From: Aquisphaera giovannonii | GTDB lineage: Bacteria > Planctomycetota > Planctomycetia > Isosphaerales > Isosphaeraceae | Length of the DNA: 64,000 nucleotides | Assembly (NCBI RefSeq): GCF_008087625.1 | Contig: NZ_CP042997.1 | Coordinates: 8,928,001-8,992,000, forward strand | Reading direction: 5' to 3' | Part shown: one piece after another, positions 20,989 through 39,884 of the stretch | Layout: the number at the start of each line of letters is the position of its first letter | How positions within the stretch are numbered: position 1 is the stretch's first letter | Translations under genes and position numbers: made by a program | The notes under the pieces: generated by a model | The model's input: only the letters and a program-made list of their open reading frames with translations | What the model was told of the DNA's origin: nothing | Databases searched by the model: none

Positions 20989-21009
20989 CAGGGGAGGCGG
21001 GTGAAGGCG

Positions 21010-24250: not shown

Positions 24251-25495
24251 ATGCCGACGTATCAGTACGAGGCGATGGACCACACCGGCCGCGAGGTCAA
24301 GGACTCGATCGACGCCTCCACCCAGGAGGAGGCCGCCCAGCTCATCCGCCAGAAGGGCTTCTTCGTCACCAAGATCTCGGAGAAGGCCAAGAAGTCGGCC
24401 CGCAAGTCGGCGGCCAAGAAGGGCGGGCGGAAGAAGAAGAAGTCGTTCACGATCGGCCGGATCTCGACCAAGCAGCTCTGCACGTTCACCCGCCAGCTCT
24501 CCACGCTCCAGGACGCCGGCCTGCCGATCCTCCGGAGCCTGAAGATCCTGGAGGGCCAGTGCCGCCCCGGCGTGCTCAAGAACTCCCTCGGCGACGTGGT
24601 CGAGGACATCGAGAGCGGCATGACGCTCTCGGAGGCGTTCGCCAAGCACCCCAAGGCGTTCGACCGGCTCTACTGCAACATGATCAAGGCCGGCGAGGCC
24701 GGCGGCGCCCTGGAGGCCATCCTCCAGCGCCTGGCGGACTTCAAGGAGAAGTCCCAGAGCCTGAAGCGGCGGATCAAGTCGGCGATGGTCTACCCGCTCG
24801 TCGTGATCTCGGTCGCGTGCATCATCGTCGGCTTCATCCTCTACTTCATCATCCCGAAGTTCGAGGCCATCTTCAAGGACTTCGGCGTGCCCCTGCCGGG
24901 CATGACGACGTTCCTGATCGCCGCCAGCCACTTCGTGATCAAGTACTTCTATCTATGCTTCCTGGCGCCCCTGTTCTTCTGGATCTTCATCAAGCTCCTG
25001 TACCGGAATCGGACGGGTGCCTACGTCTGCGACCGAATATTACTCATGATCCCCGTCATGGGGACCATCGTGGAGAAGTCCACGGTGGCCCGGACCATGC
25101 GGACGTTGGGGACGCTCGTGCAGTCGGGCGTGCCGATCCTGGAGTCGCTGAACATCGTCCGCGACACGGCGGGCAACGCGGTCTTCGAGCGGGCGTTCAC
25201 GCGCATTTATGAGAGCATCCGCGAGGGCGAGACGATCGCCCAGCCGCTCCGCGAGTCGCGGATCGTGGACGACATCGTCGTGAACATGATCGACGTCGGC
25301 GAGGAGACGGGCGAGCTGGACACGATGCTCAACAAGATCGCCGACAACTACGACGAGGAGGTGGAGACGGCCGTGGAGTCGCTCGTGAGCCTCCTGGAGC
25401 CGATCATGATCGTCGTCCTGGGCGGCATCATCGGCTTCATCGTCATCGCCCTGTTCCTGCCGCTGATCACCCTGATCACCAAGCTGTCCGGCTGA
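24251..25495 (+). CDS. gspF: Inner-membrane platform protein GspF/PilC
   Basis: The protein has 414 residues, the usual length. GGAGGGA lies 10 bases before the ATG. Two T2SSF domains are visible (about 75-200 and 285-405), each with the block FTRQLSTLQDAGLPIL or ARTMRTLGTLVQSGVPIL. Three transmembrane segments lie near 185-207, 222-245 and 380-405. Between residues 45 and 65 there is a Lys-rich insert ('KKSARKSAAKKGGRKKKK'). GspF anchors the rotating ATPase under the growing pseudopilus. A strong hairpin follows the gene. Confidence 0.95.
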   Translation: MPTYQYEAMDHTGREVKDSIDASTQEEAAQLIRQKGFFVTKISEKAKKSARKSAAKKGGRKKKKSFTIGRISTKQLCTFTRQLSTLQDAGLPILRSLKILEGQCRPGVLKNSLGDVVEDIESGMTLSEAFAKHPKAFDRLYCNMIKAGEAGGALEAILQRLADFKEKSQSLKRRIKSAMVYPLVVISVACIIVGFILYFIIPKFEAIFKDFGVPLPGMTTFLIAASHFVIKYFYLCFLAPLFFWIFIKLLYRNRTGAYVCDRILLMIPVMGTIVEKSTVARTMRTLGTLVQSGVPILESLNIVRDTAGNAVFERAFTRIYESIREGETIAQPLRESRIVDDIVVNMIDVGEETGELDTMLNKIADNYDEEVETAVESLVSLLEPIMIVVLGGIIGFIVIALFLPLITLITKLSG

Positions 25496-25669: not shown

Positions 25670-26911
25670 ATGACCCGCCCCCGCCCCACCCACGACCGGC
25701 CCGACCCGACCCGCCGCGGCGGCTTCACGCTTGTGGAATTGCTGATGGTGATCGCCATCCTCGGCCTCCTGATCGCGCTCCTGCTGCCGGCCATCAACTC
25801 GGCCGTCAGGACCAGCCGGAAGGCCGCGATCGGGGCCGAGATCAACACGCTGGCCCAGGGCCTCAACGCCTTCAAGGCCCAGTACGGCGACTACCCGCCC
25901 AGCCGGGTCTACCTGGCCGAGAACGGCGACTTCGGCTCGGCCCAGGCCATCCAGATCGCCCCCGGCGACATCACCTTCGCACAGCTGTCCCAGCGTACCG
26001 TATCGTATCTCCGCAGATTCTTCCCGCGCGCCGTCCTGAACACCAGTGGCGGCAACGTCTGGGGCGCCTTGGGCTCGTCGCCGAAGGTCTGGTACGATTT
26101 CAACGGCAACGGGGTGATGGATCCCCCCTACATCCTGGAGGGCCACGAGTGCCTCGTCTTCTTCCTGGGGGGCATCCCGCTGAACAACGGGACGAGCTTC
26201 TCCATGACGGGGTTCGGCAAGGATCCGACCAACCCGTTCACGAACAACGGGGGCGTCATCAACTCCAGCGACAACCGCACGTCGCCGATGTTCGAGTTCG
26301 CCGCCAACCGGCTGGTCCTCGACCCGCTCCAGATACGCCGCTATCAGGGCGACGTCCCGCACTATCAGGCGGTCGCCTGGAACAGCCCCGCCTACGTCGA
26401 TAATTCGGGCAACGCGATCAACGATGTGGCCAGCGCGCAGATCAATTTCTACGCCTATTTCAGCGCCTACGGGAAGGGCGGCTACGACCCGAACGACGTG
26501 AACTTCCAGCTCGCCATCTCCTCGAACGAGGTCTACGGCGAGAAGGACGCCAATCTCGCCATCCCCATCCAGAAATTCCGGGTCGCCTATCCGATCCCGA
26601 CCACGGCGATCACGGGGGTGGCCAACGTCGCCGCATCGGCGCCGCCGAACCCGTACACGAGCAGCTCCACCGTCCCCGCGACCGGGACGGCGGTCCAGGC
26701 GCCGACGTTCCTCAACCCGCAGAGCTTCCAGATCATCTCGTCGGGCCCGGACGGCCAGTACGGGCTGGGCGGCATCTACCTGCCGGACTCCACCGGCGCG
26801 ACGGTCCTCCCCCTCGACCCCAATGCGGCCACCATCGGCACCTCGGACACGAGCATCCGGACCCGCGAGCGGGACAACGTGACGAACTTCCACAACGGCT
26901 CGCTCGATTGA
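25670..26911 (+). CDS. gspG: GspG-like pseudopilin, enlarged (first copy)
   Basis: The protein has 413 residues; ordinary GspG has about 140. A class III signal is cut after GG in 'RRGGFTLVELLMVIAILG', with Glu5 of the mature protein present and a hydrophobic helix behind it. The C-terminal block 'IISSGPDGQYGLGG' followed by RDNVTNF matches the calcium loop at the end of GspG. The added 270 residues between helix and loop are rich in Asn, Ser and Pro and look like an extra beta-domain. GspG polymerises into the pseudopilus shaft. It is the first gene after the hairpin that follows gspF. Confidence 0.88.
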   Translation: MTRPRPTHDRPDPTRRGGFTLVELLMVIAILGLLIALLLPAINSAVRTSRKAAIGAEINTLAQGLNAFKAQYGDYPPSRVYLAENGDFGSAQAIQIAPGDITFAQLSQRTVSYLRRFFPRAVLNTSGGNVWGALGSSPKVWYDFNGNGVMDPPYILEGHECLVFFLGGIPLNNGTSFSMTGFGKDPTNPFTNNGGVINSSDNRTSPMFEFAANRLVLDPLQIRRYQGDVPHYQAVAWNSPAYVDNSGNAINDVASAQINFYAYFSAYGKGGYDPNDVNFQLAISSNEVYGEKDANLAIPIQKFRVAYPIPTTAITGVANVAASAPPNPYTSSSTVPATGTAVQAPTFLNPQSFQIISSGPDGQYGLGGIYLPDSTGATVLPLDPNAATIGTSDTSIRTRERDNVTNFHNGSLD

Positions 26912-26969
26912 TCGTCGACGGCAACGGCAGGTGACAACCCGAGGGCCCGGAAAGGCGAGGCGTCGGACC

Positions 26970-28583
26970 ATGCGAAATCAGAGACCGAGAGCGACCCCGC
27001 GAAGCCGGCAGGCCGGCGGGGACGGGACGCCGCCGGGGGGGTGCGAATCCCACCGGGCCGCTCGACGGGCGGCCTTCACCCTGGTCGAGCTGCTGACCGT
27101 GATCGCGATCATCGGGATCATCATAACCCTGATCCTGATCGCGGCCAGTGGCGCCCAGCGGCAGGCGGAGATGGCCGCCACCCAGTCGCTGATCGCCAAG
27201 CTCGACTCCGCGATGAACGACCGCCTCGACGCCCTGCTCCAGACGCGGCCCGATTACAACCTGACGCACCGCTACATGGCGAGCGTGTACTACACCGACA
27301 GCAACGGCGTCTCCCGCCAGAGCGAGAGCCAGGCCAGGGCCCAGGTCATCGCCTGGTACGACTTCATCAAGGCGGAGATGCCCGACGTCTTCTACGTCTA
27401 CAACACGACCGGGCCGTACCCGCTCAACTTCGCCTTCCCGGAGAGCGGCCTGCCCGGCACCCCGATCGATTCCCAGGGGCTCGGGCACGTCATGCTGCCC
27501 CTCGGCAATTCGCTCCGGAACAACCCGTCCGGCAATAGCTTCGGGGACTCCAACTTCTCGAACACCGTGGGGACGGGGATCTACGGGGCGTCCTACTTCG
27601 CGGCCGCGGGGGTCTACAAGAACCTCGGATACCTGCCCGCGGGGTGGGACGGGGCGGACAACAGCACGTCCAGCGTCTCGGGCGGCGCCGGGCTGGTGGA
27701 CGAGTGGGGGGAGGGGGTGAATTCGACCAACTCCGCCCAGGTGGTGGCGAACCTCACCAACCACAAGCACCACACGGCCCGCGCCGAGATGCTCTATGCC
27801 CTCCTCGTCGAGGGGGTGGGGCCGCTCGGTTCCGCCTTCAGCCGCGACGACTTCACCGACAGGGAGGTCCGCGACACCGACGGCGACGGCCTCCCCGAGT
27901 TCGTGGACGCCTGGGGCAACCCGCTCCAGTTCTTCCGCTGGCCCATCCTCTACCCGACGGACGTGCAACGGGGGCAGTCGGAGGTCGTGGACTCCGGGAC
28001 GGGCCTGCTTACGCTGCTGCCCCCCTACTACTCGACGTCCGCCACGGCGGCGACGTTCCTCCCGCGCGAGAACTCCCCCCTCGATCCGAACAACCTGCTC
28101 GTGGCCCCCGCCTGGTGGTCGGCGACCCAGAATCCGATGTCCCCCTTCGGCATGGGCGCGACGTCGCAGAACGGCAGCCCGGCGGTGACCCTGTTCGAGA
28201 ATTTCTTCCACCGCCTCACCGAGCCGCTCCAGCACACGGGGAGCGTGATGGACTACTGGGACCGGGGCGGGAGCGCGGACTTCGGCTACCGCAGGGCCTT
28301 CTACACGAGGCCCCTGATCCTCTCCTCCGGCCCCGACGGGGCGCCCGGGGTCTACCTGATCCCCGACGGCGGAACCTCCTCCATGCCCCTCAACGCCGCG
28401 CACCTCATCCGCTTCGAGAACAACGCGCTGATCTTCGACCCGGTCGAGGCGGGGTTCAACGGCGAGGTGCTGGGGATCCAGAGCTTCGGGGCCGCCTCCA
28501 AGAGCTATGCGATCTGGCAGGCCGGCAAGGACGACATCACCAATCAGAACCGCCAGACCGCCGGCGGCGGGGGAGGGTCCTGA
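26970..28583 (+). CDS. GspG-like pseudopilin, enlarged (second copy)
   Basis: The protein has 537 residues from the ATG at 26970, which follows GAGGCG; a GTG at 26931 is a weaker option. The class III signal has an unusual Ala before the cut: RRAAFTLVELLTVIAIIG. Glu5 is kept. The C-terminal part repeats the GspG-like pattern: 'ILSSGPDGAPGVYLI' and KDDITNQN. The long middle domain is Asn/Ser/Tyr-rich and holds a short DTDGDGLPEFVD loop, which resembles a calcium-binding loop. It follows gspG1 directly and is followed by gspH after 2 bases. It may be a second shaft subunit or a shaft cap. Confidence 0.85.
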   Translation: MRNQRPRATPRSRQAGGDGTPPGGCESHRAARRAAFTLVELLTVIAIIGIIITLILIAASGAQRQAEMAATQSLIAKLDSAMNDRLDALLQTRPDYNLTHRYMASVYYTDSNGVSRQSESQARAQVIAWYDFIKAEMPDVFYVYNTTGPYPLNFAFPESGLPGTPIDSQGLGHVMLPLGNSLRNNPSGNSFGDSNFSNTVGTGIYGASYFAAAGVYKNLGYLPAGWDGADNSTSSVSGGAGLVDEWGEGVNSTNSAQVVANLTNHKHHTARAEMLYALLVEGVGPLGSAFSRDDFTDREVRDTDGDGLPEFVDAWGNPLQFFRWPILYPTDVQRGQSEVVDSGTGLLTLLPPYYSTSATAATFLPRENSPLDPNNLLVAPAWWSATQNPMSPFGMGATSQNGSPAVTLFENFFHRLTEPLQHTGSVMDYWDRGGSADFGYRRAFYTRPLILSSGPDGAPGVYLIPDGGTSSMPLNAAHLIRFENNALIFDPVEAGFNGEVLGIQSFGAASKSYAIWQAGKDDITNQNRQTAGGGGGS

Positions 28584-28585
28584 CC

Positions 28586-29998
28586 ATGGGCGCCAGAGCC
28601 GCACGCGGCCGCCGATCGGGCTTCACGCTCATCGAGCTGCTGATCGTCATCTCGATCATCCTGCTGGTGAGCGCGGCGACCCTGCCCGCCGTGGTGTCCG
28701 CCTACAACCATCGCCAGGTGAGCGAGGCGGCGCGGATCATCCAGGCGGCGCTCGTGGGGGCCCGCGACGCGGCGACGAAGAACGGCGCCCCGGCCGGGCT
28801 CCGCTTCCTGCCCGACCCGGCCCTCAACGTCTTCGACGGCACGACCCTGCGCATGGATCCGACGAAGATCCTGGCGGCCGATCGATTCGTCCCGATCCAG
28901 CTCGCGCCCGATTACACCGAGGGGCGGATCAGGATGATCGCGAGCGGCTCGACCCTCAACTACGACACCTCCGCCATAAACCCATACACTTACTTCATCT
29001 ATCCTCCGTCCAAGAGCCCCACGGGCGTGACGACCTACTATCCCGCCCTGTCGAACCGCCTGCTCTACGTCGAGCAGGAGGTCTTCGACAAGGACGGCCT
29101 GCTGAACCCGCCGACCTCGTGGTACTGGAACGTCCGCATCGGCGACAAGATCCAGATCAACAACACGGGCGTCTTCTACACGGTGGTGGGCCCGATGCAG
29201 GTGAACAACCCCGAGCTGTTCGTCAACGTGGGCGTGCCCGGCACCGTCCCGCCGATGAAAGCCGTGACGTCGGCCCAGGTGAGCGGGAACCACTATCCCG
29301 AGTTCCTCTTCCTGGTCAACGGCGTGGACGACGACCGCGACGGCTTCGTGGACAACGGGTGGGATGGCGTGGACAACGACCTCGACGGGGTGACCGACCG
29401 TGCCCCCGTCATCAGCTCCGCCGGCGTGGTCTCCTCCTACTGGGAATGGACGGAGACGGAGACCTGGCAGAGTTCGTCGACCAGTTATCTCACCCAGGGT
29501 CAGCTCCCCTACACGCTGGTCCGCCGGCCGGTGATCGCGCCCGGGGCCAGGGAGACCGGGCTGCCGTCGAACGTGGTCGTGGACCTGACGACGTGGAACG
29601 CGGCCGTCCCCGAGCGGTCCCGGGTGCCCCTCGACGCGACCAACGGCACCTTCGACATCCTGATCACCCCCGACGGCAGCGTCGTGCCGACGACCACGTA
29701 CTCGTCGCCGACGTCGTTCGGCATGGGCGCGTCGTTCTTCCACCTCTGGCTGGCGGAGCGGGGCGACCTGTACGACCCGATCACGCCGACCAGCCCGGCG
29801 GTCAATTACCTGCCGCAGGTGGCCAACGCCAACACGCCGGCGGGCGAGACCCGGTTCCTCAAGGGCGACCGGATGCTGCTGACGCTCTTCACGCGCAGCG
29901 GCCAGCTCGTCACGAACCCGATCGAGTCCTTCGACGCCCACAACGTGAACCTGCCGTTCGTGCTCCCGCAGCAGGGGATCAGGGGGGACAACCGATGA
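28586..29998 (+). CDS. gspH: GspH-like minor pseudopilin, enlarged
   Basis: The protein has 470 residues; usual GspH has about 170. The signal is [16 protein letters not shown], cut before Phe with Glu5 present. The next helix carries the GspH/FimT pattern 'ARIIQAALVGARDAATKNG'. The middle has 'PPTSWYWNVRIGDKIQIN' and a run of acidic loops around DDDRDGFVDNGWDGVDNDLDG that looks like calcium-binding type 3 repeats. The same parts recur in the paralogue at 41732-43060. The next gene starts in the stop codon of this one (ATGA, 29995-29998). Confidence 0.88.
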   Translation: MGARAARGRRSGFTLIELLIVISIILLVSAATLPAVVSAYNHRQVSEAARIIQAALVGARDAATKNGAPAGLRFLPDPALNVFDGTTLRMDPTKILAADRFVPIQLAPDYTEGRIRMIASGSTLNYDTSAINPYTYFIYPPSKSPTGVTTYYPALSNRLLYVEQEVFDKDGLLNPPTSWYWNVRIGDKIQINNTGVFYTVVGPMQVNNPELFVNVGVPGTVPPMKAVTSAQVSGNHYPEFLFLVNGVDDDRDGFVDNGWDGVDNDLDGVTDRAPVISSAGVVSSYWEWTETETWQSSSTSYLTQGQLPYTLVRRPVIAPGARETGLPSNVVVDLTTWNAAVPERSRVPLDATNGTFDILITPDGSVVPTTTYSSPTSFGMGASFFHLWLAERGDLYDPITPTSPAVNYLPQVANANTPAGETRFLKGDRMLLTLFTRSGQLVTNPIESFDAHNVNLPFVLPQQGIRGDNR

Positions 29999-31422
29999 AG
30001 ATCCGCACGACGGCCGGCCGAGCAGCCCCGAAGGGCCGGGCGGGCATCACGCTCACCGAGATCCTGATCGCGATCATGATCCTGGGCATCGGCCTGATCT
30101 CGCTGGCCACGCTCTTCCCGATCGGCCTGCTCCGGCTCCGCGAGGCCCAGCGGCAGACGCGGTCGTCGCTCCTCTTCGAGTCGGCCGCCTGCGACGTCGC
30201 CGCGCGGACGCTCTTCGACCGGAACTCGTTCCTCTACGTGGACCTGGTCAACAACAACTACGGCTGGCCCTTCTGGTACATCTCCGGCGGCGCCCGCTTC
30301 GACCCGCTCGTCCACGACACGCCCTACTACGGCGGGGCGCCGACCGGCGACGGCGCGGGCAACGGGGCCAGCTCCACGAGCTATGGCCTGCCGTTCGCTT
30401 ATGACCCGCTCTGGCGGCAGATCACGGTGCACCCGGTGACCGGGACGCCCGGGATCTACCTCGACCCGGTGAACCAGGACACCGCGGAATTCCGCTTCGC
30501 CGACGGCACCGGCCTGCTCCCCAACGACCCCGGCGGCGGCATCCCCAGCGCGCACGGCCTCCAGAGGCTGACCAACTTCAACCGGCCGGGCTTCGCCGGG
30601 ACCGGGCCGTCGGCCTTCGTGCCCTCGATCTTCGTGTCGCCGGAGGACGTCGTCTGGCAGGACTCGACGATCAACACGTACAACGTCGCATTTAACCCCA
30701 CCGTCGGGGTGGGGCCCTCCCCCAGCTCGGTCGTCCCCGACCTGAGCATGACCTACGACGCGGCGGGTAACCAGACTTATCAGCCGGTGAATGACTTCCG
30801 ATTCAGCTGGATGCTCACCGCCCACCAGGCCAACGGCTCCGCCGGCGCGGCGTTCGACGGGAACGTGGTCATCTTCGAGAACCGGATCTTCGGCACCGAG
30901 CCCGCCCCCGCCCCGGCCAACTTCCGCGCGGCCGGCGAGTTCGTCTGCGAGGGCGTCTTCGGCGCCAGCAAGAACGTCCAGCTGGCGGCCAACGCCGCGA
31001 CCATCGGCAGCTACGGTTACGGCATGGGCGCGGATCGGACCGTCCTCATCCGCTGGTCGAACACCCTCGCCGACCCCGTCGTGAAGGTGGGCGACTGGAT
31101 CGCCGACGTGACCTACGAGCGGAATCAGCTGGTGGTCGCCAAGCGTTTCCTGTTCAACTCGGGCGTCGGCGCGGCGAGGGCCTCCACCCTCGAGTGGGAC
31201 AACATGCCGGCCCAGCGCTGCTACTGGTATCAGGTCCAGAAGGTGACCCCCGCCCAGGACGACACCACGAAGGCCGGCTTCCGATCCATGACGGTCTACA
31301 CGAACAGGAAGCTCGAGGCGCGGACGGTGCTGAATACCGCCGGCAACCCGCTCTACCAGAACGCCGTGCTGATCTGCCCCCAGGTCGTCAACGTGATCCC
31401 GCAGACCTTCTTCCTCCGCTGA
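29995..31422 (+). CDS. gspI: GspI/PilV-like minor pseudopilin, enlarged
   Basis: The protein has 475 residues; usual GspI has about 125. It has a strong ribosome binding site AGGGGGG and an ATGA overlap with gspH. The signal is 'KGRAGITLTEILIAIMILGIG', cut after Gly with Glu5 present. 'IGLISLATLFPIGLLRLREAQ' after it is the PilV/GspI pattern. The rest is a long Asn/Gly/Pro-rich globular region with no domain that I recognise. In the standard T2SS, GspI forms the core of the pseudopilus tip with GspJ and GspK. Its position between H and J supports the call. Confidence 0.83.
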   Translation: MKIRTTAGRAAPKGRAGITLTEILIAIMILGIGLISLATLFPIGLLRLREAQRQTRSSLLFESAACDVAARTLFDRNSFLYVDLVNNNYGWPFWYISGGARFDPLVHDTPYYGGAPTGDGAGNGASSTSYGLPFAYDPLWRQITVHPVTGTPGIYLDPVNQDTAEFRFADGTGLLPNDPGGGIPSAHGLQRLTNFNRPGFAGTGPSAFVPSIFVSPEDVVWQDSTINTYNVAFNPTVGVGPSPSSVVPDLSMTYDAAGNQTYQPVNDFRFSWMLTAHQANGSAGAAFDGNVVIFENRIFGTEPAPAPANFRAAGEFVCEGVFGASKNVQLAANAATIGSYGYGMGADRTVLIRWSNTLADPVVKVGDWIADVTYERNQLVVAKRFLFNSGVGAARASTLEWDNMPAQRCYWYQVQKVTPAQDDTTKAGFRSMTVYTNRKLEARTVLNTAGNPLYQNAVLICPQVVNVIPQTFFLR

Positions 31423-31477
31423 GCTCGGGGATGTCCACCGAAACGCATCGCTCGCCGTCCTTTGCAGGGGCCTTGCC

Positions 31478-33736
31478 GTGAGACAACGCCGACACAACCC
31501 GGATGCCCGCCGAGCCGCGAACGCCAGGGCGAATCGCCGCGGCGTCACGCTCATCGAGATGCTGGTGACGCTGGCGGTGCTGCTGGTCATGATGACGCTC
31601 GTCGTCCGGATCTTCCAGGCGGCCACCGGCTCGCTGAACGCGGCCCAGGTGTACCAGGAGATCGACGGCCAGTTCCGACGGCTGGACAGCGTCATCCGCT
31701 CGGACCTCGCCGGCGCCACCGCGAAGATGACGCCGCCCAACGACCCGCAGAACCACACGGGCTACTTCGAGTACATCGAGAACGAGTTCGCCGACATCCA
31801 GGGCGAGGACTGCGACGACGCCATCCGGATGACCGTCAAGGCCCCCGCCGGCCGCCCCTTCACCGGCCGCGTCTGGCTGCCGCCGCCGAATCCCTCCACC
31901 CTGACCGCCGTCGAGGCGAGCAACTACTTCAGCTCGACGGCCAGCTTCCAGCCCATCACCGTCACCAGCGACTTCGCCGAGGTCATCTACTTCCTCCGCA
32001 ACGGCAACCTCTACCGGCGAGTCCTCCTGGTCGCCCCGGAGCGGCAGGCCTCGATCGTGCCGACGCTCAACAACACCGCCACCATCATGGTCGGCACGCC
32101 GTCCACGCCCGCCACGATGCCCACGTCGCCGCCCTCGCCGTTCCTGTCCTCGTTCATGCCGACGGGCCTGAATTCCCTCCAGGTGAGCTGGCAGTCGATG
32201 AACGACCTGTCGGCCCACCCGGCCCCCCGGGGCACGCCCTACAACGGCAACGTGGTGATACTCAACACCCTGAGCGACCTGACCGACCGGGAGAATCGCT
32301 GGCCCAACCAGCGCTTCGCCGACGACTTCCTGAATCTCTCCGGCGTCGATGCCCCCGACGGCCTGGCGGACGATTTCAATCAGGACAACGTCCCGGACTA
32401 TTACCCGACGCTCTACCCGACGGTCATCAGCGCCCCGGTCAACAACACGCTCGTCTGGGAGCCGGTCCCTTATCCCCGTACGCACATGCCGGCCATGGCC
32501 TTCCCGTTCGTGTTCCCGGGGATGTACTCGAGGCCGCAGGTCTGGAACACGGGCGGCCTGAATCCCGGCTGGATCCACTCGCCGGAGCCCCTGGCCGGCG
32601 CGGCCCTCAATCAGTACGACCAGGCCCCCCTGGCCTATCTCAACAGCATCAACCACGCCCCGATCGACATCGGCGACAACCTCCCGGTGCCGATCACGGG
32701 GGCGACCGGCGGCAGCAGCGAATATCAGACGTGGTGGGGCTTCCCGACCTGGCGGGAGACCCTCTCGCCATTCTGGACCGACCCGACCTACCCGGTGCAG
32801 GGCGTGACCAGCATCGGCCTGGCTCCCGGGCAGCCGCGGGGCCTGGCCTACCAGGATGCGTCCGCGACGGTCGTCTCGGATAGCGGGAACCTGCTCCCGG
32901 CGATGAACGGGAACTATCGCGTCATCCCGCAGCCCTTCACCGACGGGATGGGGACGGGCGTGGACGGTGCGGGGAACGGATTCTTCGTGTCCACCAACGC
33001 CGCGACCAACACGGCGCTCTCGAACCTGTGGAACTCGGGCTGGGAGGACGACCTCGTCATGACGGGCGTCCGCAGCTTCGACATCAAGGCCTATGACAAC
33101 AGCCTGGGGACGTACGCGGACCTCGGCTGGGGCGACGACCCCAGGCTGACCACCACGCTCGTCGGGGGCAGCACCACGGCCGGAGGCGTCACCACCCCCA
33201 CCCCCATGGGTACGACGCTCTTCACGCCGTACCTGTACGGCAACTACGACGCGTACAACGGAGCCTACGCCTTCCCGGCCTACGCCAACGTCAACGGCGG
33301 CTTCTTCGACGTGGTGAATCAGACCTTCGCCCACGAGGGACGCATGCCGCCGCTGGTCAACGACAATCGACTGGATGCCTCGAACCCGAACCCGACGTAC
33401 GTCAGCCCCACGAGTTACACGCCAGCGTATCCCGCCGTGCCGACTTACTCGAGCAACGTCGGGGACGACAACGTGAGCATCTTCCGCCTGCGGCGGACGT
33501 GGGACTCGTGGTCCACCGCCTACACCAAGGCCCCGGCCACGGGCATCAACCCACCGAGGTCTCCCCTGCCGGGCTTCCCGGCCGGGCCGCCGTTCTCGCC
33601 GCCGATCTACCCGTCGTACCCGGCGCCCTACCCGGCGCCGCTGCGGGGGATCCAGATCCAGGTGCGGGTCACGGACCCGACCAGCCAGCGTATCAAGACG
33701 TTGACGATTCGACAGGATTTCACGGATAAGCTGTGA
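31478..33736 (+). CDS. gspJ: GspJ-like minor pseudopilin, enlarged
   Basis: The protein has 752 residues; usual GspJ has about 200. The start is a GTG at 31478. The signal is 'NRRGVTLIEMLVTLAVLLVM', cut after Gly with Glu5 present. 'IDGQFRRLDSVIRSDLAGAT' after the helix fits GspJ. The middle and C-terminal parts are Asn, Tyr and Pro-rich with many short repeats of the form 'PNP..YVSP'. The last 60 residues return to a GspJ-like strand set ('LRGIQIQVRVTDPTSQRIKTL'). So the family core appears split by an insert of about 500 residues. Confidence 0.83.
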   Translation: MRQRRHNPDARRAANARANRRGVTLIEMLVTLAVLLVMMTLVVRIFQAATGSLNAAQVYQEIDGQFRRLDSVIRSDLAGATAKMTPPNDPQNHTGYFEYIENEFADIQGEDCDDAIRMTVKAPAGRPFTGRVWLPPPNPSTLTAVEASNYFSSTASFQPITVTSDFAEVIYFLRNGNLYRRVLLVAPERQASIVPTLNNTATIMVGTPSTPATMPTSPPSPFLSSFMPTGLNSLQVSWQSMNDLSAHPAPRGTPYNGNVVILNTLSDLTDRENRWPNQRFADDFLNLSGVDAPDGLADDFNQDNVPDYYPTLYPTVISAPVNNTLVWEPVPYPRTHMPAMAFPFVFPGMYSRPQVWNTGGLNPGWIHSPEPLAGAALNQYDQAPLAYLNSINHAPIDIGDNLPVPITGATGGSSEYQTWWGFPTWRETLSPFWTDPTYPVQGVTSIGLAPGQPRGLAYQDASATVVSDSGNLLPAMNGNYRVIPQPFTDGMGTGVDGAGNGFFVSTNAATNTALSNLWNSGWEDDLVMTGVRSFDIKAYDNSLGTYADLGWGDDPRLTTTLVGGSTTAGGVTTPTPMGTTLFTPYLYGNYDAYNGAYAFPAYANVNGGFFDVVNQTFAHEGRMPPLVNDNRLDASNPNPTYVSPTSYTPAYPAVPTYSSNVGDDNVSIFRLRRTWDSWSTAYTKAPATGINPPRSPLPGFPAGPPFSPPIYPSYPAPYPAPLRGIQIQVRVTDPTSQRIKTLTIRQDFTDKL

Positions 33737-33833
33737 GCTTGGCCCGCCGAGCGACTCGACGCGGGCATCATCCATAGCGTGATTGGGAGCAGGCCCGGGC
33801 CCGGGGCGGCCCGCTGCCAGGGGAGGTTCGACC

Positions 33834-36800
33834 ATGTTGGCCGGAACGAGGACTCGCCGCGGACGCCGGCGCGGGGTCATCCTGATCCTGGTGCTCGGCA
33901 TCCTGGGGCTCATGGCCGTCATCGGCATCACCTTCGCGACCCTGTCGGGCCAGGCGAGGGTGGGGGCCCGGCAGAACGCCCAGGCCATGCAGCAGCCCCA
34001 GCGGGACGAGCTCTTCGACTACGCCCTCTCGCAGCTCATCAGCGACACGGCGGACATCCGCTCGGCGATCCGCGGCCACGGCATGGCCCGCGACATGTTC
34101 GGCAACGACGCCAACCGCAACGGGTACCTCACCCAGAGGCCCGACGGCCTGCGGATGGCCCCCAACAACGACGCCTTCTTCTACATCACGGCGGTCGCCT
34201 CGGCGGGCGGCACGCTCTACGACCTGACCACGAACATCCCGACCGCGGACAACGCGTTCTACGGGTACGACTTCACGCGATGGACCCTCCGGGTGGCCAT
34301 GCTCACCGCCCCGACGAGCCCCGCCACGGGCGTCGTCAACCAGTCGCTCGAGGTGCTCATCGACAACACGTCGGGGGCCAACCACGTCTTCCGCGTGAAC
34401 ATCGCCCCGACCGACGCCGCCACGACGCTCCTCAACCCGACCGTCACCCCGACGCACGCCGCGGGCTACACGACGCAGCTGCCCGGCGATTACCTGGTCG
34501 CGGCCGCGGGCGGCGGTGCGGTGGGCACCCAGCAATTCATCCTCGACGGCCGCTGGCTGCACGCCTTCAATGGGCCGGGGATGGGGAGCAACGCCTACAA
34601 GGGCAACTTCCGGTTCAACGGCGTGGACCCGAACTCGGCCGGCATGGACGAGGACTACGACGCCGCCGACCTGGAGAACTGGTTCCTCGCCCTCCAGAGC
34701 GCCGACGGCACCGTGATGGTCCCCTCGTTCCACCGGCCCGGCATCGTCCGCTACGACATCTCCGCCACGACGACCACGCCGATCAACGACTGGGATGCCG
34801 ACTACTACGTCTCCGGCCCCGCCGCCTGGCGGGAGGCGGCCCAGCGCGTCCTCCGGCCGCGGAGGGTCGACGGCCACGACGGGACCACCTTCCCCGACCT
34901 GATCCCCGACGAGACCGGCCGGCTCACCTTCGACGTGGACAACGACAGCGACGGCAAGACCGATTCCGTGTGGGTGGACCTCGGCTACCCGGCTAGGACC
35001 AACGCCCAGGGGCAGCTCTACAAGCCCCTCTTCGCCTTCATGGTCGTCGGGCTCAACGGCCGGATCCCGCTGAACACCGCCGGCAACCTCGCGGGCAACG
35101 GCTCGACGCACGCCGCCCACCTGGGCAACTCGGTCAGCGAGGTGGACCCGACCTACGGCCTCCAGAACGGGGTCACCCCGACCACCAATCAGAGCGACAA
35201 CTCGGGCCAGGACGTGCGCCTGACCCAGCTCCGCAACCTGCTGGCCGGCACCCGCACCTTCGACAACGACAGCCCGACCTCCTACCCCTACGCCCCCGTG
35301 CCGGGCCTCTCCCAGACCAACGGCGACGCCAACTGGGTCCAGGTGGGATTCGACGCGGCCACCGGCTCGCCGATCCCCATCTACATGCCGAACGGGAAGG
35401 TCGATGCGGGCGTCGATTATCGCGCCGACGTCGCGGCGACCATCGTCAGCGATCCGGCCAACCAGGCCGTGATGCGGAGCACCGAGCCGATCGCGGGCCG
35501 CTGGGGCGAGGCCCAGGCCGTGCCGGGCAACCCGACGCTCAACCCGAACACCGGGACGCCCATGAACCTCCTGGGCCAGGGCTACAACAACCAGGTCCGG
35601 GCCGGCTACTCGCTGGATCCGACCGACCAGGTCAGCGGCCAGGCCCGGGACGCGGCCGACGACAACTTCAACTCCTTCGACCCCTACCCGCCGCTGTCCG
35701 CCCGCACGGGCGAGGTGGACGACCTGGATTTCCTCGACCCCGCCGGCGGCTACCTGATGCCCGTCGAGCGGATGCGGCGGTTCGTCACGCCGCCGGACAT
35801 CAACGGCTCGGGTGCGGTCGTCCAGTGGGACGGCATCGCGACCTCCGCCGGGGCCAACCGCGGTGCGGACCAGTGGGGGCGGGTGGAATTCAGCAGCTAC
35901 TTCCGCCCGCCGGGCCTCCCCGGGACCATCGCCCCCGGGGCCGGCGCGACGGCGATCGGCTTCCCCTGGGCCGACACCGACCCCTACCCCGCGACGATGG
36001 TGTCGAACACGACGGGCAACTCCCTCCTCAACAACAACAACCCGCTCCACGGCTTCCTGGCCCAGTGCTTCCCGAACCTGAATTACACCGGCGGATTCAC
36101 CCCCCAGCGCGTGGGCGGCGTCCCCGTGGACCTGAACACCAAGGCGGCCCCGCTCAGGTACCTCCCCAACACGCTGCCGACCTATGACATGGGGGCGAAC
36201 GCGCGGCAGAGGTCCGACGGCCTCAACGAGGCCGACGAGATGAACCTCTACGCGCCCAACGCCCAGCTCGACGCCCCCTTCGGCTACGCCGACCTCGAGT
36301 GGCTCTACCGCGGGCATGACGTGGACGGCACCTCCCTGACGTCCCGCCTGTCGAAGCTCGCCCCGGTCAGCTTCCGGAACCCGGTGGACAGCACCCGCCA
36401 CCGCCGCCTCTTCTCGGTCGACACGTGGGAGACGACCAACTTCTCCTGGGCGAGCGACCGCCCCGTGAACACCTTCAACCCGGCCAGCCCCGGCCTGAAT
36501 TTCACGAACAACAGCCGCTTCGCGTCGGGCAACGCCGGCTTCAGGAACATCCCCGTCGTCCCCGCCACCACGCCCCCGACGTCCGTGCCGACCGCGTCGC
36601 TGATGCACCGGGATCGCAAGATCAACCTGAACTACCCGCTGCCGGTCTCGAACGACCCGAATGAGTCCGTCCGCCAGAAGTGGATCGCGGACGCGTACTA
36701 CACGCTCAAGGCCATCCTCCCGCCGCGATCGGTGGACTCGCCCGAGGAGCTGGCCCAGCTGAGCCAGTTCGTGATCAACATCGTCGACTTCCGCGACACC

Positions 36801-39800
36801 GACGCGACGATGACCCACTGGCGGAACCCGGACGTCTGGCTCCGCCCCGGCACGACGGTCGCGCCGTATGTCGTCCTCACGGCCAACAAACTGGCGACGG
36901 ACATGCCGCTGGACCAGTACGGGATGGAGCACAACCCGGTCGCCATCAACGAGGTCCTGGCCTACTGCTTCAACCGCAAGACCGGCACCGGCGGCGGCAA
37001 TACCCCCACGCCCCGGTTCTTCATCGAGCTGGTGAACACCCTCAGCGCCCCGGAGCTCGGCAACAACACGAATGCCGGGCTGGGGACGCCGCTCAACAAT
37101 GCCAGCGTCCTGGACCTCGCCGGGTTCCTCTCCAACTCGACCCCGGCCCCGCCGACCCCGTGGGACGGGGCCTGCTGGGACCTCGTGTTCACGGCCGACA
37201 ACCCGGTCAGCCGGCCCGACCCGATCCTCGGGCAGTTGCAGCCGGGGGGGACGTTCTATTCGCTCTTCCCGTTCTCCCAGTCGAGCGTCATGGCGGCCAC
37301 GCCCGCGATGACCCCGACGCCGCCCCCGACCGGCGATCCGGTGCTCCTGCCCCTGCCCCAGGCGCCCAGCCCGAAGAATACCAGCATGTACATGGGCGAC
37401 CCCGCGAAGACGGCCACGGCGGGGGGCACGGGCGCGGCGGCCACGCTGAGCCACAACCTCTACTTCATGACCATCGGCAACGCGGCGCCGGCCGGCGGCG
37501 CGGAGTCCGCCCCGCCGGTGACGTCCTACCAGTTCCAGGCCTCCTGGGATCCCGTCACCGGGTCGGCCCCGACGGGCGCGATCCCGGCGGGCGTCCTGCC
37601 GCCGCCCGCGGTGGGGGGCACGGTGCCGACCGTCTACCCGGCGGCCAAGCTCCCCCAACCCGCCGCGGGGAGGTCCGCCTTCTACTGGGTCTGCCTGCGG
37701 AGGCCGGCGAACCCGTTCGCCCCGGTCTCGGCCACCAATCCGATGATCGTCGTCGACTGCATGCGGTTCCCCTACACGGAGGCCGGCGGCACGGGCACCA
37801 CGTCCGGGGGCATGGACACCGCCACGACGGGCAGCAACAACATCTATTCGTACCAGCGGTTCCAACCCTATCGCGGCGGCCAGGCCGTGCCCTACGGCAC
37901 GAGCACGGGCATCTCGGACCCCAGGTATGGGTACAGCGAGCAGATCGCGCCCCCCGCCACCAATTCGGGGAACGTCGGCAAGTACGGCACCGCCACGAAC
38001 AACATCACCCAGCCGATCTACCACACCCTGGGCGCCCCCAACGACTACACCTGGGATAACCTCACGACCAACCCCTCGATCTACGAGGCGTGGGACTACT
38101 TCCCCTTCAACGACCGCGACTTCACCAGCGTCGCCGAGCTGATGATGGTCCCCGGCTGCCCGCCCGGCCTGTTCACCAAGCAGTTCGTCGAGTTCGCCCC
38201 GTCGTCCGCGACCGCGAACAACCTGAAGTCGGTGACGCCCCTGAGGACGCCGACGCCCGCGACGCTGCCGACCTACGGCGACTTCTCCAAGAGCTCCACC
38301 GCGCTGGATTACCCGGCCGCCCCCGCGGCCGCGCCGGCCACCCCGTTGACGCCGCACACGTTCCCCTACCTGGTGGACAAGTTCTTCTACACCGCCGCGT
38401 CCCCGGCCACCGTGCCGCCGAACGGGAGGTTTGGCGACCAGACCGGCGACGGCTGGTTCAAGATGTTCGAGTTCTTCGAGGTCCCCAGCCAGGTGAACGG
38501 CTCGATCGGCTCGGTGGCCCAGGGGATGAACTTCGACTGGGCGCGCCAGGACACCAGGCCCGGCCAGATCAACCTCAACCTGGTCGTGGACGAGGAGGTC
38601 TTCTTCAGCGTCTTCGGCAAGCAGGACGGGAGCTTCCAGCAGAACCTGCTGAACTTCGCCGAGCTCACCCCGCCGACGTGGACGGGCGGCATCTGGCCCC
38701 CGCAGATCGGCAGCACGACCCCGTACCCCCCGCTGCCGGTGGGCACGCCCCCGGTCCCGCTCGTGGTCAGCGCCCAGAATGCATTCGGGGCACCGAGCTA
38801 CGCCTACCCGATGCCCAATGTGGGGATGGGCTACCTGGACCCGATCACCAACACGTATCTGAACCACATGAAGGCGTCGTTCGCGCAGTTCCTCACGCTC
38901 CGCCACGGCGGCTCGGGGTTCGTCTTCGGCTACGGCAAGGGGGCGCCGGGGCAGAATTACGCGGTGCAGCTCGCCGCCGCCAACCCGAACGCCCCGACCT
39001 TCGCCAACCTGCCCCGCAACCCGATCCCGGCCGACCGCCCGTTCCGCTCGCTCTCGTACCCGGACATCAACTACACGGTGATGCGGCCCGCGGCGCTGCC
39101 GCTGTCGCCGTACACCGATCCGAAGCCGAGCACCGCCGCGGTCGCCTGGCCGCCGACCGGCTACACGGGGAACTATGCGGGCGACCCGGGCCTGCGGAAC
39201 CCGTCGATCCATCACGCCTACATCACGAGCGTGCCCGGCGCGACGCCGACGCCGCCCAACGGCCCCGCGAGCACCCCCGGGAGTCGGCTCCATCTCCCCC
39301 CGCCGATCCCGGCGCGGCGGCTCTTCCAGCCGGCCGACCGGAGCACGGCCAGCAACGCGAACGTGGCCGGCGACCCCTACGTCAACAACACGAAGCCGGT
39401 CACCGCCACCGTGGCCACCGGCGCCCTGCCCCCCTGGGGCGGCGTGGGCATCAACGACGGCGTGCCCTCGATCTACTGGCCCACGACCGAGACGCTCCCC
39501 TATGCCGCGGGCACGCTCGGCAACGACAACAGCACCGCGACCGTCCCCTGGAAGATCGATCGCCGGCAGCACCCGTACTTCCGGTCCGAGCAGCTCCAGA
39601 AGGCCATGAACCTGACCACCGTGCGGACGCACCAGTATGCGGTCTGGATCACGGTCGGGTTCTTCGAGGTCACGCGGACGGGGGACCTGGGGATGCTGGC
39701 CGCCCCGTCGGTCTCGCCGACCCTGGCCTTCGACATCCTCGGCCCGGAGATCGGGGCGGCGACCGGCCAGGCGGGCCGCTATCGCGGCTTCTTCATCGTG

Positions 39801-39884
39801 GACCGCCTCAAGCTCACCGGCTTCGACCCCAACACGCCGGGGAGCTTCCGCCCGGCGGTGATGTATCGCCAGACGATCGAATGA
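33834..39884 (+). CDS. gspK: Giant GspK-like minor pseudopilin (2016 residues)
   Basis: Usual GspK has about 330 residues. The ATG at 33834 follows GGGGAGG; an upstream in-frame GTG at 33783 has no such site. The N-terminus 'RRRGVILILVLGILGLMAVIG' is a class III signal without Glu5, as in GspK. 'ARVGARQNAQAMQQPQRDELF' after it also fits GspK. A loop DVDNDSDGKTDSVWVDLGYP lies near residue 370. The rest is Pro, Asn, Thr and Gly-rich with many short strand segments and no domain that I can name. It may form a very large pseudopilus tip. The frame is unbroken over 6 kb with normal codon use, so its size is real. It is the last gene of the G-H-I-J-K order. Confidence 0.85.
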   Translation: MLAGTRTRRGRRRGVILILVLGILGLMAVIGITFATLSGQARVGARQNAQAMQQPQRDELFDYALSQLISDTADIRSAIRGHGMARDMFGNDANRNGYLTQRPDGLRMAPNNDAFFYITAVASAGGTLYDLTTNIPTADNAFYGYDFTRWTLRVAMLTAPTSPATGVVNQSLEVLIDNTSGANHVFRVNIAPTDAATTLLNPTVTPTHAAGYTTQLPGDYLVAAAGGGAVGTQQFILDGRWLHAFNGPGMGSNAYKGNFRFNGVDPNSAGMDEDYDAADLENWFLALQSADGTVMVPSFHRPGIVRYDISATTTTPINDWDADYYVSGPAAWREAAQRVLRPRRVDGHDGTTFPDLIPDETGRLTFDVDNDSDGKTDSVWVDLGYPARTNAQGQLYKPLFAFMVVGLNGRIPLNTAGNLAGNGSTHAAHLGNSVSEVDPTYGLQNGVTPTTNQSDNSGQDVRLTQLRNLLAGTRTFDNDSPTSYPYAPVPGLSQTNGDANWVQVGFDAATGSPIPIYMPNGKVDAGVDYRADVAATIVSDPANQAVMRSTEPIAGRWGEAQAVPGNPTLNPNTGTPMNLLGQGYNNQVRAGYSLDPTDQVSGQARDAADDNFNSFDPYPPLSARTGEVDDLDFLDPAGGYLMPVERMRRFVTPPDINGSGAVVQWDGIATSAGANRGADQWGRVEFSSYFRPPGLPGTIAPGAGATAIGFPWADTDPYPATMVSNTTGNSLLNNNNPLHGFLAQCFPNLNYTGGFTPQRVGGVPVDLNTKAAPLRYLPNTLPTYDMGANARQRSDGLNEADEMNLYAPNAQLDAPFGYADLEWLYRGHDVDGTSLTSRLSKLAPVSFRNPVDSTRHRRLFSVDTWETTNFSWASDRPVNTFNPASPGLNFTNNSRFASGNAGFRNIPVVPATTPPTSVPTASLMHRDRKINLNYPLPVSNDPNESVRQKWIADAYYTLKAILPPRSVDSPEELAQLSQFVINIVDFRDTDATMTHWRNPDVWLRPGTTVAPYVVLTANKLATDMPLDQYGMEHNPVAINEVLAYCFNRKTGTGGGNTPTPRFFIELVNTLSAPELGNNTNAGLGTPLNNASVLDLAGFLSNSTPAPPTPWDGACWDLVFTADNPVSRPDPILGQLQPGGTFYSLFPFSQSSVMAATPAMTPTPPPTGDPVLLPLPQAPSPKNTSMYMGDPAKTATAGGTGAAATLSHNLYFMTIGNAAPAGGAESAPPVTSYQFQASWDPVTGSAPTGAIPAGVLPPPAVGGTVPTVYPAAKLPQPAAGRSAFYWVCLRRPANPFAPVSATNPMIVVDCMRFPYTEAGGTGTTSGGMDTATTGSNNIYSYQRFQPYRGGQAVPYGTSTGISDPRYGYSEQIAPPATNSGNVGKYGTATNNITQPIYHTLGAPNDYTWDNLTTNPSIYEAWDYFPFNDRDFTSVAELMMVPGCPPGLFTKQFVEFAPSSATANNLKSVTPLRTPTPATLPTYGDFSKSSTALDYPAAPAAAPATPLTPHTFPYLVDKFFYTAASPATVPPNGRFGDQTGDGWFKMFEFFEVPSQVNGSIGSVAQGMNFDWARQDTRPGQINLNLVVDEEVFFSVFGKQDGSFQQNLLNFAELTPPTWTGGIWPPQIGSTTPYPPLPVGTPPVPLVVSAQNAFGAPSYAYPMPNVGMGYLDPITNTYLNHMKASFAQFLTLRHGGSGFVFGYGKGAPGQNYAVQLAAANPNAPTFANLPRNPIPADRPFRSLSYPDINYTVMRPAALPLSPYTDPKPSTAAVAWPPTGYTGNYAGDPGLRNPSIHHAYITSVPGATPTPPNGPASTPGSRLHLPPPIPARRLFQPADRSTASNANVAGDPYVNNTKPVTATVATGALPPWGGVGINDGVPSIYWPTTETLPYAAGTLGNDNSTATVPWKIDRRQHPYFRSEQLQKAMNLTTVRTHQYAVWITVGFFEVTRTGDLGMLAAPSVSPTLAFDILGPEIGAATGQAGRYRGFFIVDRLKLTGFDPNTPGSFRPAVMYRQTIE

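Follow-up and report, generated by a model that had tools for sequence, protein, structure and literature searches.

Six consecutive genes in a 64,000-nucleotide stretch of Aquisphaera giovannonii DNA (contig NZ_CP042997.1, positions 8,928,001 to 8,992,000; hereafter the window) are read here as the minor-pilin (tip-initiation) set of a planctomycete type IV filament machine, in which the last protein, K, would be a GspK-type tip subunit; we put the probability of this reading at about 0.58. The six genes are arranged head to tail at 25670-39884, between four motor and platform genes and a DUF1559 prepilin gene, as follows (window coordinates):

18692..20710, + strand: PilB-type assembly ATPase with an MshEN (c-di-GMP-binding type) domain, 672 aa (Pfam T2SSE 455 bits, MshEN 74.9 bits)
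21001..22122, + strand: PilT-type retraction ATPase, 373 aa (TIGR01420 449.8 bits, above the cut-off of 319.1)
22401..24116, + strand: second PilB-type ATPase with a c-di-GMP-binding domain, 571 aa (Pfam T2SSE, MshEN)
24251..25495, + strand: PilC/GspF inner-membrane platform, 414 aa (Pfam T2SSF 2.2e-69)
25670..26911, + strand: G1, GspG-like prepilin, 413 aa, Glu5 kept (N_methyl 28.7 bits; GspG 8.7e-12 over residues 18-79)
26970..28583, + strand: G2, GspG/GspH-like prepilin, 537 aa, leader ending in Ala, C-terminal S-x-G-P-D loop
28586..29998, + strand: H, GspH-like prepilin, 470 aa (N_methyl 29.4 bits; GspH 2.2e-9 over residues 11-75)
29995..31422, + strand: I, PilV/GspI-like prepilin, 475 aa (PilV 5.4e-5)
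31478..33736, + strand: J, prepilin in the GspJ position, 752 aa, GTG start (N_methyl 26.1 bits; named from gene position)
33834..39884, + strand: K, giant GspK-type prepilin, 2,016 aa, without Glu5
40076..41377, + strand: DUF1559 prepilin adjoining K, 433 aa (PF07596 131.5 bits; N_methyl 35 bits; H-X9-DG), possibly a shaft pilin or cargo

By sequence, all six are class III prepilins, that is, type IV filament subunits: each protein has a class III prepilin segment with a short basic leader, Gly or Ala at -1 (the cleavage site follows Gly in five and Ala in G2) and a hydrophobic helix, and Glu5 is present in G1, G2, H, I and J, with Leu at position 5 of K. Frames and N-termini agree with the six lengths and the pattern of Glu5 given in the original prediction, and its assignment of these proteins as minor pilins or pseudopilins is borne out by the class III segments and by Pfam N_methyl matches in five of the six (G2 lies exactly at the 21.2-bit cut-off and I, at 21.0, just below it). 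A crude pattern finds Glu at residue 5 in 53 of 62 G1, 50 of 59 G2, 39 of 48 H, 31 of 40 I and 37 of 40 J orthologs, and in 0 of the 56 readable orthologs of K. (The minima and the K row of our ortholog length table are artefacts of the crude start and label rule, and medians were used for the other genes.) Assignment to individual families is less secure: G2 matches GspH best (3.3e-5), no specific family model is matched by J, K is without a Pfam or NCBIfam match at E 0.1, and the window prepilins are all either under the curated cut-offs of the T2SS pseudopilin models (GspG/H/I/K) or unmatched by them. The predicted G-G-H-I-J-K naming is based on N-terminal matches only, with J placed by position. 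The motif S-x-G-[PADS]-D occurs in 38 of 59 G2 orthologs, 9 of 62 G1 orthologs and 7 of 128 H, I and J orthologs together; its form at the C-terminus of G2, S-x-G-P-D, presumably resembles a loop of GspG. G2 also has an upstream GTG at 26931 as an alternative start, which would give 550 aa, and the I gene overlaps the H gene by 4 bases. J is invariant at 111 of the 686 columns that follow the helix in ten Isosphaeraceae, the window included.

The unusual length of K was first argued from its uninterrupted frame, but is that length real? The argument is weak, because the antisense strand also carries an open frame of 1,954 aa and the DNA is 70% G+C; the size itself is supported by orthologous long frames across the class Planctomycetia, where open frames of 1,433 to about 2,620 aa lie behind PilC wherever the region was fetched. 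K is single-copy. Among 80 K loci, 56 gave an intact frame of at least 1,400 aa with a recognised helix (truncated, split and unread loci were dropped, and L089, L092 and L095 were excluded from A4 and A5). Identity reaches 85% or more at 126 of the 2,016 positions in an alignment of 57 K proteins, and 37 columns are invariant among 21 class members; since 122 of the 126 lie beyond residue 70, the added mass, which lies outside the N-terminal helix as predicted, is not the disordered, unconserved filler that would have refuted the original prediction. Part of K may nevertheless be flexible: its structure models are of middling confidence, with pLDDT below 50 in 466 of 1,140 and 374 of 1,007 modelled residues (131 residues are shared by the two models), and occupancy falls to 0.42-0.52 in some stretches of the 57-protein alignment. 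Its regions are these (hhalign values are against K proteins of other planctomycete classes):

33834..34043, + strand: K 1-70, leader and long N-terminal helix (AF2 helices 15-53 and 57-70; hhalign against the N-terminus 97.5%, 7.4e-12)
34122..34553, + strand: K 97-240, predicted beta barrel (best VIA Z 6.7, unspecific), without counterpart in other-class K
34614..35168, + strand: K 261-445, conserved core 1 (33 positions at least 85% identical in 57; hhalign 98.2%, 4.3e-14)
36234..36869, + strand: K 801-1012, conserved core 2 (25 positions at least 85% identical; hhalign 90.5%, 1.4e-6)
36930..37772, + strand: K 1033-1313, probable lamin-tail (Ig-like) domain (VIA, and hhalign 79.3%, 1.6e-5)
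38514..38993, + strand: K 1561-1720, RxPGxINLN segment (hhalign against the GspK-matching segment 28.4%, 6.1e-4, weak)
39534..39881, + strand: K 1901-2016, C-terminal strand domain (hhalign against the C-terminus 95.7%, 9.2e-9)

Core 1 carries the motifs DEDYDAxD, PSFHRP, DVDNDGDGxxDSVWxDLG and NLNTAGN, and core 2 the motifs INLN and QxAVNIVDFRDPDxxMT; there is no support for reading the three NLN motifs of K as an internal repeat (best probability 2.8%). Comparison of window K with other-class K by region gave six colinear cells with E of 6e-4 to 4e-14, the remaining 74 of 80 cells having E of at least 0.002, and four of the ten regions compared (97-260, 446-800, 1331-1560 and 1721-1900) lack a counterpart there. 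Window K itself matches neither T2SSK (PF03934) nor T2SS_GspK (NF037980), and the link to GspK runs through these shorter orthologs: that of locus L164 scores 39.4 bits against Pfam T2SSK (cut-off 24.2) and 9e-17 against NF037980, there at 61.6 bits and so under the cut-off of 130, and its residues 854-976 align to GspK profile positions 200-286. The others of the seven scanned were L161 (2.4e-6, 27.3 bits), L163 (0.0017), L158 (0.14) and three without a match. From these sequence comparisons the best reading of K is that of a GspK-type tip subunit enlarged by insertion and colinear with shorter orthologs across the phylum, in which K 1901-2016 would be the counterpart of the GspK C-terminus and K 1561-1720 possibly that of its helix-hairpin-helix part; the GspK-like last subunit of the original prediction is in this way supported. 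The lamin-tail assignment of K 1033-1313 is probable: VIA aligned it to Lamin-B1 (3umn; Z 6.5, 3.1 A, 104 residues aligned, target 116), and Pfam LTD was matched under its cut-off in two of seven other-class K proteins and in one of 21 class K proteins (E 0.03), with no match in window K. All VIA matches of K have Z below 8, values that according to the tool can reflect a common arrangement; GspK is absent among the VIA matches listed for the K models, which given the limits of the tool is no test of likeness. Foldseek searches of the K models against the PDB gave no match at E 0.001, and sequence profiles of K, of the L164 protein and of other-class K gave nothing useful there. A Pfam T2SSK search of 59 genomes, our own included, found matches at E of at most 0.01 in 45 and over the cut-off in 29; the two matches in the A. 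giovannonii genome, at 6.23 and 1.44 Mb, were ruled out as K.

The gene set is widespread in the phylum: the PilB-PilT-PilB-PilC-prepilin arrangement recurs in the class Planctomycetia, with shorter forms in other planctomycete classes. In 20 regions from each side, hand-picked from genomes with matches, so that the synteny counts are not those of a random sample, the second PilB gene, PilC, the prepilin genes and K lie on one strand in all 20 class regions, and all four motor and platform genes are visible in 12 of these (the other eight regions stop before the first gene or genes); PilB, PilC and K are together in 10 of the 20 other-class regions, with PilT too in eight of the ten. In the other two, L161 and L170, there is no PilT within the fetched stretch. 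A single-sequence search for K left 10 of 59 genomes without a match; such absences are unreliable, because a profile then recovered K in two of them (G042 and G055). Outside the class many matches to the K profile are limited to the N-terminal helix.

Other parts of such a machine are encoded elsewhere in the genome. A distant locus has a PilM of 865 aa (PilM_2 121.5 bits) together with a secretin of 1,495 aa (Secretin 87.5 bits), and beside this PilM are proteins of 598 and 688 aa without a Pfam match, the former with a hydrophobic N-terminal stretch; Pfam recognised no PilN or PilO there. Searches with this PilM gave matches in 56 of 59 genomes, our own included (43 of the 43 good ones), and those with a C-terminal piece of the secretin also in 56 of 59 (42 of the 43 good ones); the secretin is about 1,200-1,770 residues long in many class members. 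Three secretins are over the cut-off in the A. giovannonii genome, and we infer that the 1,495-aa one pairs with the six-prepilin set because it adjoins PilM. The motor ATPases and the platform are of normal size, and it is the envelope-facing parts (prepilins, PilM and secretin) that are enlarged. Neither the enlargement of PilM and the secretin nor the spread of the gene set through the phylum figured in the original prediction.

In this reading, judging from family membership, PilB and PilC would polymerise a filament and PilT would retract it. K, with a pilin frame at both ends (the N-terminal helix without Glu5 and the C-terminal strand domain) and between them some 1,700 residues beyond the 307-position GspK model, among them the probable lamin-tail domain, would sit at the tip, and H, I and J would form a complex beneath it as in GspH-I-J-K. 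The shaft might be built from G1 and G2 or from DUF1559 prepilins, of which there are about a hundred in the genome (110 matches), and the filament would pass through the enlarged PilM-secretin complex. Its task would likely be for the tip to bind surfaces or polysaccharides, with extension regulated by c-di-GMP and retraction driven by PilT. Planctomycete fibres do bind dextran (PMC5394234), and pilus genes including PilT are upregulated in Singulisphaera on chitin (PMC11279305).

Is this machine a pilus or a secretion system? A true T2SS, in which a short periplasmic pseudopilus pushes enzymes through the secretin and the size of its parts serves the cargo or a wide periplasm, is a rather unlikely reading with real points in its favour: the best match of three prepilins is GspG or GspH, the last gene is GspK-like, the platform scores higher against GspF (404.3 bits, cut-off 424) than against PilC (381.8 bits, cut-off 700), both under cut-off, the two other-class clusters without PilT in the fetched stretch include one (L161) with a GspK match, and the authors of a transposon study of Planctopirus limnophila describe functions of the probable counterpart locus as "related to secretion" (PMC10632474). 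Against it, the window cluster contains PilT, which is reported to have been lost in T2SS (PMC6668835), the secretin adjoins PilM, and the pseudopilin models are all under cut-off. With PilT in the cluster and PilM and the secretin at one distant locus, the machine appears to resemble a retractile type IV pilus more than a T2SS, and the label "standard T2SS" of the original prediction is not supported.

It is improbable, in our estimation, that these are large but functionally ordinary pilins of a simple type IV pilus serving adhesion or motility, with inserts that are lineage-specific linkers or decorations. The low confidence of about 40% of modelled K residues, the poorly occupied stretches and the commonness of modular pilins (PMC8179133) would fit this, but K is strongly conserved in cores distant from the helix, its size is retained class-wide, and the enlargement extends to PilM and the secretin. 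We consider very improbable an envelope-spanning structural element that ties the inner to the outer membrane without an external filament; in its favour, the membranes of planctomycetes are fastened like press studs where crateriform structures lie (PMC5394234), and the transposon paper takes up the probable P. limnophila locus next to conserved and essential regions (PMC10632474), yet a static tie would have no need of extension and retraction motor ATPases. A bolder form of the filament reading, which we regard as doubtful, is that this machine, with its giant K tip set, 865-aa PilM, large secretin and DUF1559 shaft pilins, is what forms the crateriform structures and the 12-nm fibres that bind dextran. 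A type IV pilus on this larger scale would catch polysaccharide on its giant tip and PilT would pull the polysaccharide toward the wide periplasm, the envelope-facing parts having been enlarged together while the motors stayed normal.

How does the proposed filament machine compare with known systems? K resembles GspK of the GspH-I-J-K tip complex in being last of the prepilin run, in its missing Glu5 and, via the shorter planctomycete orthologs, in a homologous C-terminal part, and differs from it in size, in being unmatched by GspK models, in its probable lamin-tail insert and in a cluster with PilT. PilB-type, PilT, PilC-type, PilM and secretin proteins of a type IVa pilus machine are all found in the genome; unlike that machine, the prepilins, PilM and secretin are about 2 to 6.6 times the size of the models or of the 757-residue Thermus PilQ, and a six-gene prepilin set lies right behind the motors with PilM and the secretin at a separate locus. 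Modular pilins are widespread (examples are PilB of Streptococcus sanguinis, CofB and ComZ), and a pilin module plus an extra folded module has also been argued for GspK (PMC8179133); the most extreme multi-domain modular pilin named there has 860 residues, in contrast to 2,016 in K, which also is without the N_methyl-type match on which that survey relied. Among the literature matches listed (titles and abstract openings) we found no report of giant planctomycete prepilins.

A matching ten-gene locus, with frames of 352-566 and 1,611 aa, is present in genome G231, which we take to be P. limnophila. The locus Plim_0410-Plim_0401 of that species, given as four T2S-annotated genes and then six planctomycete-restricted unknowns (PMC10632474), is probably of the same kind as the window cluster; the part of that paper on the locus does not call the six genes prepilins or note a giant tip subunit. 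By sequence these six would thereby gain a concrete identity as the prepilins of a filament machine. A type IV filament of unusual size would result if the large tip, PilM and secretin work jointly. The gene set is also a molecular candidate for two open planctomycete questions, the crateriform structures with pili-like fibres and macromolecule uptake.

Several scores bear on the naming of the motors. The first and second PilB-type ATPases score 627.2 and 620.4 bits against TIGR02538, under its cut-off of 675.65, and the second matches the c-di-GMP motif model NF053729 at 48 bits (cut-off 38); the window PilB and PilC score nearly as well against GspE and GspF, all four models being under cut-off. 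Codon scoring suggests that the true start of the first ATPase is perhaps 18959, giving 583 aa. The prepilins also recall the Verru_Chthon proteins A-D (TIGR02596-TIGR02600), which presumably form one cassette and are likewise prepilin-like with one long member (A, 1,296 positions). We found no paper on that cassette, and it was rejected as the family of these genes: TIGR02600 misses K of our own genome, and its lone hit in a relative spans residues 8-53. H, I and J weakly match Verru_Chthon D, B and C, respectively, at their N-termini, all below cut-off.

The features of the window used here are the following:

25670-39884, plus strand: six prepilin genes head to tail (G1, G2, H, I, J and K), encoding 413, 537, 470, 475, 752 and 2,016 residues
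40076-41377: DUF1559 prepilin, adjoining K downstream
41732-43060: 442-aa N_methyl protein with no other Pfam match, downstream of the DUF1559 gene
52834-53886, minus strand: second DUF1559 copy in the window

Six oversized prepilins had originally been predicted, and their frames and N-termini confirm this: five of the six have the N_methyl signature and Glu5 (two at or just below the N_methyl cut-off), and K, the last and largest, has the prepilin helix and lacks Glu5. Open frames are by themselves weak proof in this DNA, because it is 70% G+C and an antisense frame of 1,954 aa (minus strand, 33768-39632) spans most of K; that frame presumably stems from the G+C-rich codon usage and gives no sign of being a gene. 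The real evidence is conservation. In an alignment of 57 K proteins (56 plus that of the window), identity is at least 85% at 126 of 2,016 positions, 122 of which lie past residue 70. Conservation is strongest in blocks 261-445, 801-1012 and 1901-2016, and smaller blocks lie near 1030-1130, 1288-1308, 1428-1440 and 1577-1582; variable stretches include 446-800 and 1721-1900. K as the sole query has a match in 49 of 59 genomes, its own included (E 0.001), and within its own genome it matches only itself. A profile of K residues 1-1080 has matches in 62 of 195 phylum genomes, own included, comprising 25 of the 26 genomes of the same class (Planctomycetia) among those listed and 36 genomes of other classes; the listing does not extend to 113 genomes that lack a match. 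Outside the class, many matches score weakly (E 1e-5 to 1e-10) and are confined to the N-terminal helix, where any prepilin might match, and the matched frames vary widely in length, up to 2,060 aa. A named genome collection gave 125 K relatives, of which 80 were retained; the titles that give a group point to Isosphaeraceae, Pirellulales, Gemmata, Planctomycetaceae or similar. Two relatives come from MAGs titled Kuenenia stuttgartiensis and Nealsonbacteria, whose contigs may be planctomycete ones that were misbinned.

The relationship of K to GspK was approached through shorter syntenic orthologs from other classes ("other-class" K). The window K has no match to Pfam or NCBIfam families at E 0.1 and none to the GspK models, and two of 21 class K proteins have GspK matches with E no higher than 1 (lowest 0.0017). 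Among seven other-class K proteins scanned, three lack a GspK/T2SSK match; the 1,010-aa protein of locus L164 matches T2SS_GspK at 9e-17 (its residues 854-976 align with profile positions 200-286) and also Pfam T2SSK above cut-off, that of L161 matches T2SS_GspK at 2.4e-6, and those of L163 (0.0017) and L158 (0.14) match weakly in other parts of the protein. When the window K was compared region by region with ten other-class K proteins (80 cells), six colinear cells gave E values of 7e-12, 4e-14, 1e-6, 2e-5, 6e-4 and 9e-9, the other 74 gave 0.002 or worse, and four window K regions had no counterpart in the ten. When whole profiles were compared, the alignment was confined to the two ends, with 70 N-terminal columns (99.3%) and 52 C-terminal ones (84.4%, E 7e-6). 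The other-class proteins thus appear to bridge K and GspK, and we read K as a putative GspK-type subunit that insertions have enlarged; the GspK models themselves do not certify it as a member. GspK binds calcium. K residues 367-377 (window 34932-34964) form a DxDxDG-type loop, DVDNDGDGxxD, that is strongly kept in class K, has the other-class counterpart DADGDGxxD and, by its sequence, resembles a calcium-binding loop.

AlphaFold2 models of K have mean pLDDT values of 58.9 (1-1140) and 61.2 (1010-2016). The best VIA row for the latter is 4q1z (DUF4876; Z 7.7, 193 aligned, 4.9 Å) and the second is the Lamin-B1 tail 3umn (Z 6.5, 104 aligned, 3.1 Å), spanning K 1033-1313, after which Z drops to 4.1. 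The 1033-1313 region is colinear with the place where two of seven other-class K proteins match Pfam LTD (1.8e-4 and 1.8e-3, both below cut-off). A lamin-tail domain within K is probable, not proven; a VIA Z below 8 can reflect a common arrangement. K 97-240 is modelled as a beta barrel with no specific relative.

Directly upstream lie genes for a PilB-type ATPase with an MshEN domain, a PilT-type ATPase above the family cut-off, a second PilB-type ATPase (PilB2) with a c-di-GMP-binding motif above cut-off, and a PilC/GspF platform. In hand-chosen, non-random sets of 20 class and 20 other-class regions, PilB2-PilC-prepilins-K lie on a single strand in all 20 class regions, and all four motor and platform genes are visible in 12, the remaining regions ending too early. 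PilB, PilC and K occur together in ten other-class regions, eight of them also with PilT; the remaining ten have a K-like frame or helix match, with the motors not in reach.

These observed features (the N-termini of the prepilins, the genes for motors and platform, the conservation of K and its colinearity with GspK-like orthologs) are the basis for reading the locus as a type IV filament machine whose tip is a giant GspK-type subunit and whose envelope parts are enlarged, a reading to which we assign a probability of about 0.58. The original prediction had instead taken the genes for type II secretion pseudopilins; the GspK-like relatedness of K, reached through its other-class orthologs, partly supports this, and the PilT-type ATPase in the cluster speaks against it. 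The odds are nudged toward a true T2SS by two other-class clusters (L161 and L170) that have no PilT within the fetched stretch, and we regard such a system as unlikely. In the same two clusters K is at its shortest (862 aa) and follows PilB-PilB-PilC, and the prepilins have only 164-234 aa; these clusters are possibly close to the state preceding enlargement.

In the type IV filament machine, H, I, J and K would assemble a tip-priming complex, PilB would extend the filament under c-di-GMP control, PilT would retract it, and it would leave through a large secretin; the shaft could be built from G1/G2 or from DUF1559 proteins. DUF1559 (PF07596) has 110 matches in this genome, some of which share one frame so that the genes are fewer, and none in 14 control genomes.

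Genome G231, which we take to be the strain of the Plim_0410-Plim_0401 locus, Planctopirus limnophila, has the order PilB, PilT, PilB, PilC and then prepilin frames of 352, 384, 363, 468, 566 and 1,611 aa. The published passages on that locus describe four T2S-annotated genes and six planctomycete-restricted proteins, do not name the six as prepilins, and discuss the locus beside conserved and essential regions with no per-gene verdict in those passages; the same paper counts 68 paralogs of DUF1559, of which two are essential (PMC10632474). A modular-pilin survey was built on the N-terminal prepilin motif and may have missed K, which has no match to that motif (PMC8179133). Dextran is bound by planctomycete pili-like fibres, 12 nm wide, that are attached to large crateriform structures (PMC5394234), pilus genes, mostly Tad with PilT among them, are up in Singulisphaera on chitin (PMC11279305), and salt stress induces pilT, pilB and pilM in Rhodopirellula baltica (PMC2754498). 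By analogy with these reports, the task of the tip is most likely binding of sugar or a surface. Lineage and size hypothetically link the machine to the crateriform structures.

Median intact lengths in the fetched loci are 354 (G1, n=62), 386 (G2, 59), 407 (H, 48), 461 (I, 40) and 674 (J, 40) for prepilins, and 573 (PilB2, 55), 375 (PilT, 36) and 434 (PilC, 68) for motors and platform; the family models have 134 (GspG), 169 (GspH), 101 (GspI), 307 (GspK), 564 (PilB), 343 (PilT) and 401 (GspF) positions. In the window, prepilin lengths are about 3 to 6.6 times those of the models, and the motors and platform are about normal. Distant from the window lies one further locus:

G000:C1:7315307-7326761 (own genome): PilM-secretin locus

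The sole PilM_2 match in the genome is there, inside a protein of 865 aa (domain model 340). Next come a 598-aa protein with Gly-Met-rich stretches, a 688-aa protein and a secretin of 1,495 aa that matches STN and TPR weakly. The PilM protein has matches in 56 of 59 genomes, its own among them, and in all 43 of the good ones; the listed frames are mostly about 720-980 aa, some longer and some partial or stop-interrupted. For the secretin, a C-terminal piece of 586 residues likewise finds matches in 56 of 59 genomes and in 42 of the 43 good ones. Many of the frames listed measure 1,214-1,773 aa and one reaches 2,206; the rest are shorter, in some cases where a contig ends, and in G029 the match is divided over two frames. 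Thermus PilQ has 757 residues (PMC5745081). The envelope-facing parts are enlarged and the cytoplasmic motors are not, and we infer that the enlarged prepilins, PilM and secretin act jointly. Two more secretins above cut-off are present in the genome, at C1:5877521 (1,262-aa frame) and C1:6566674 (687-aa frame), and the host may also have other machines built on secretins, such as Tad.
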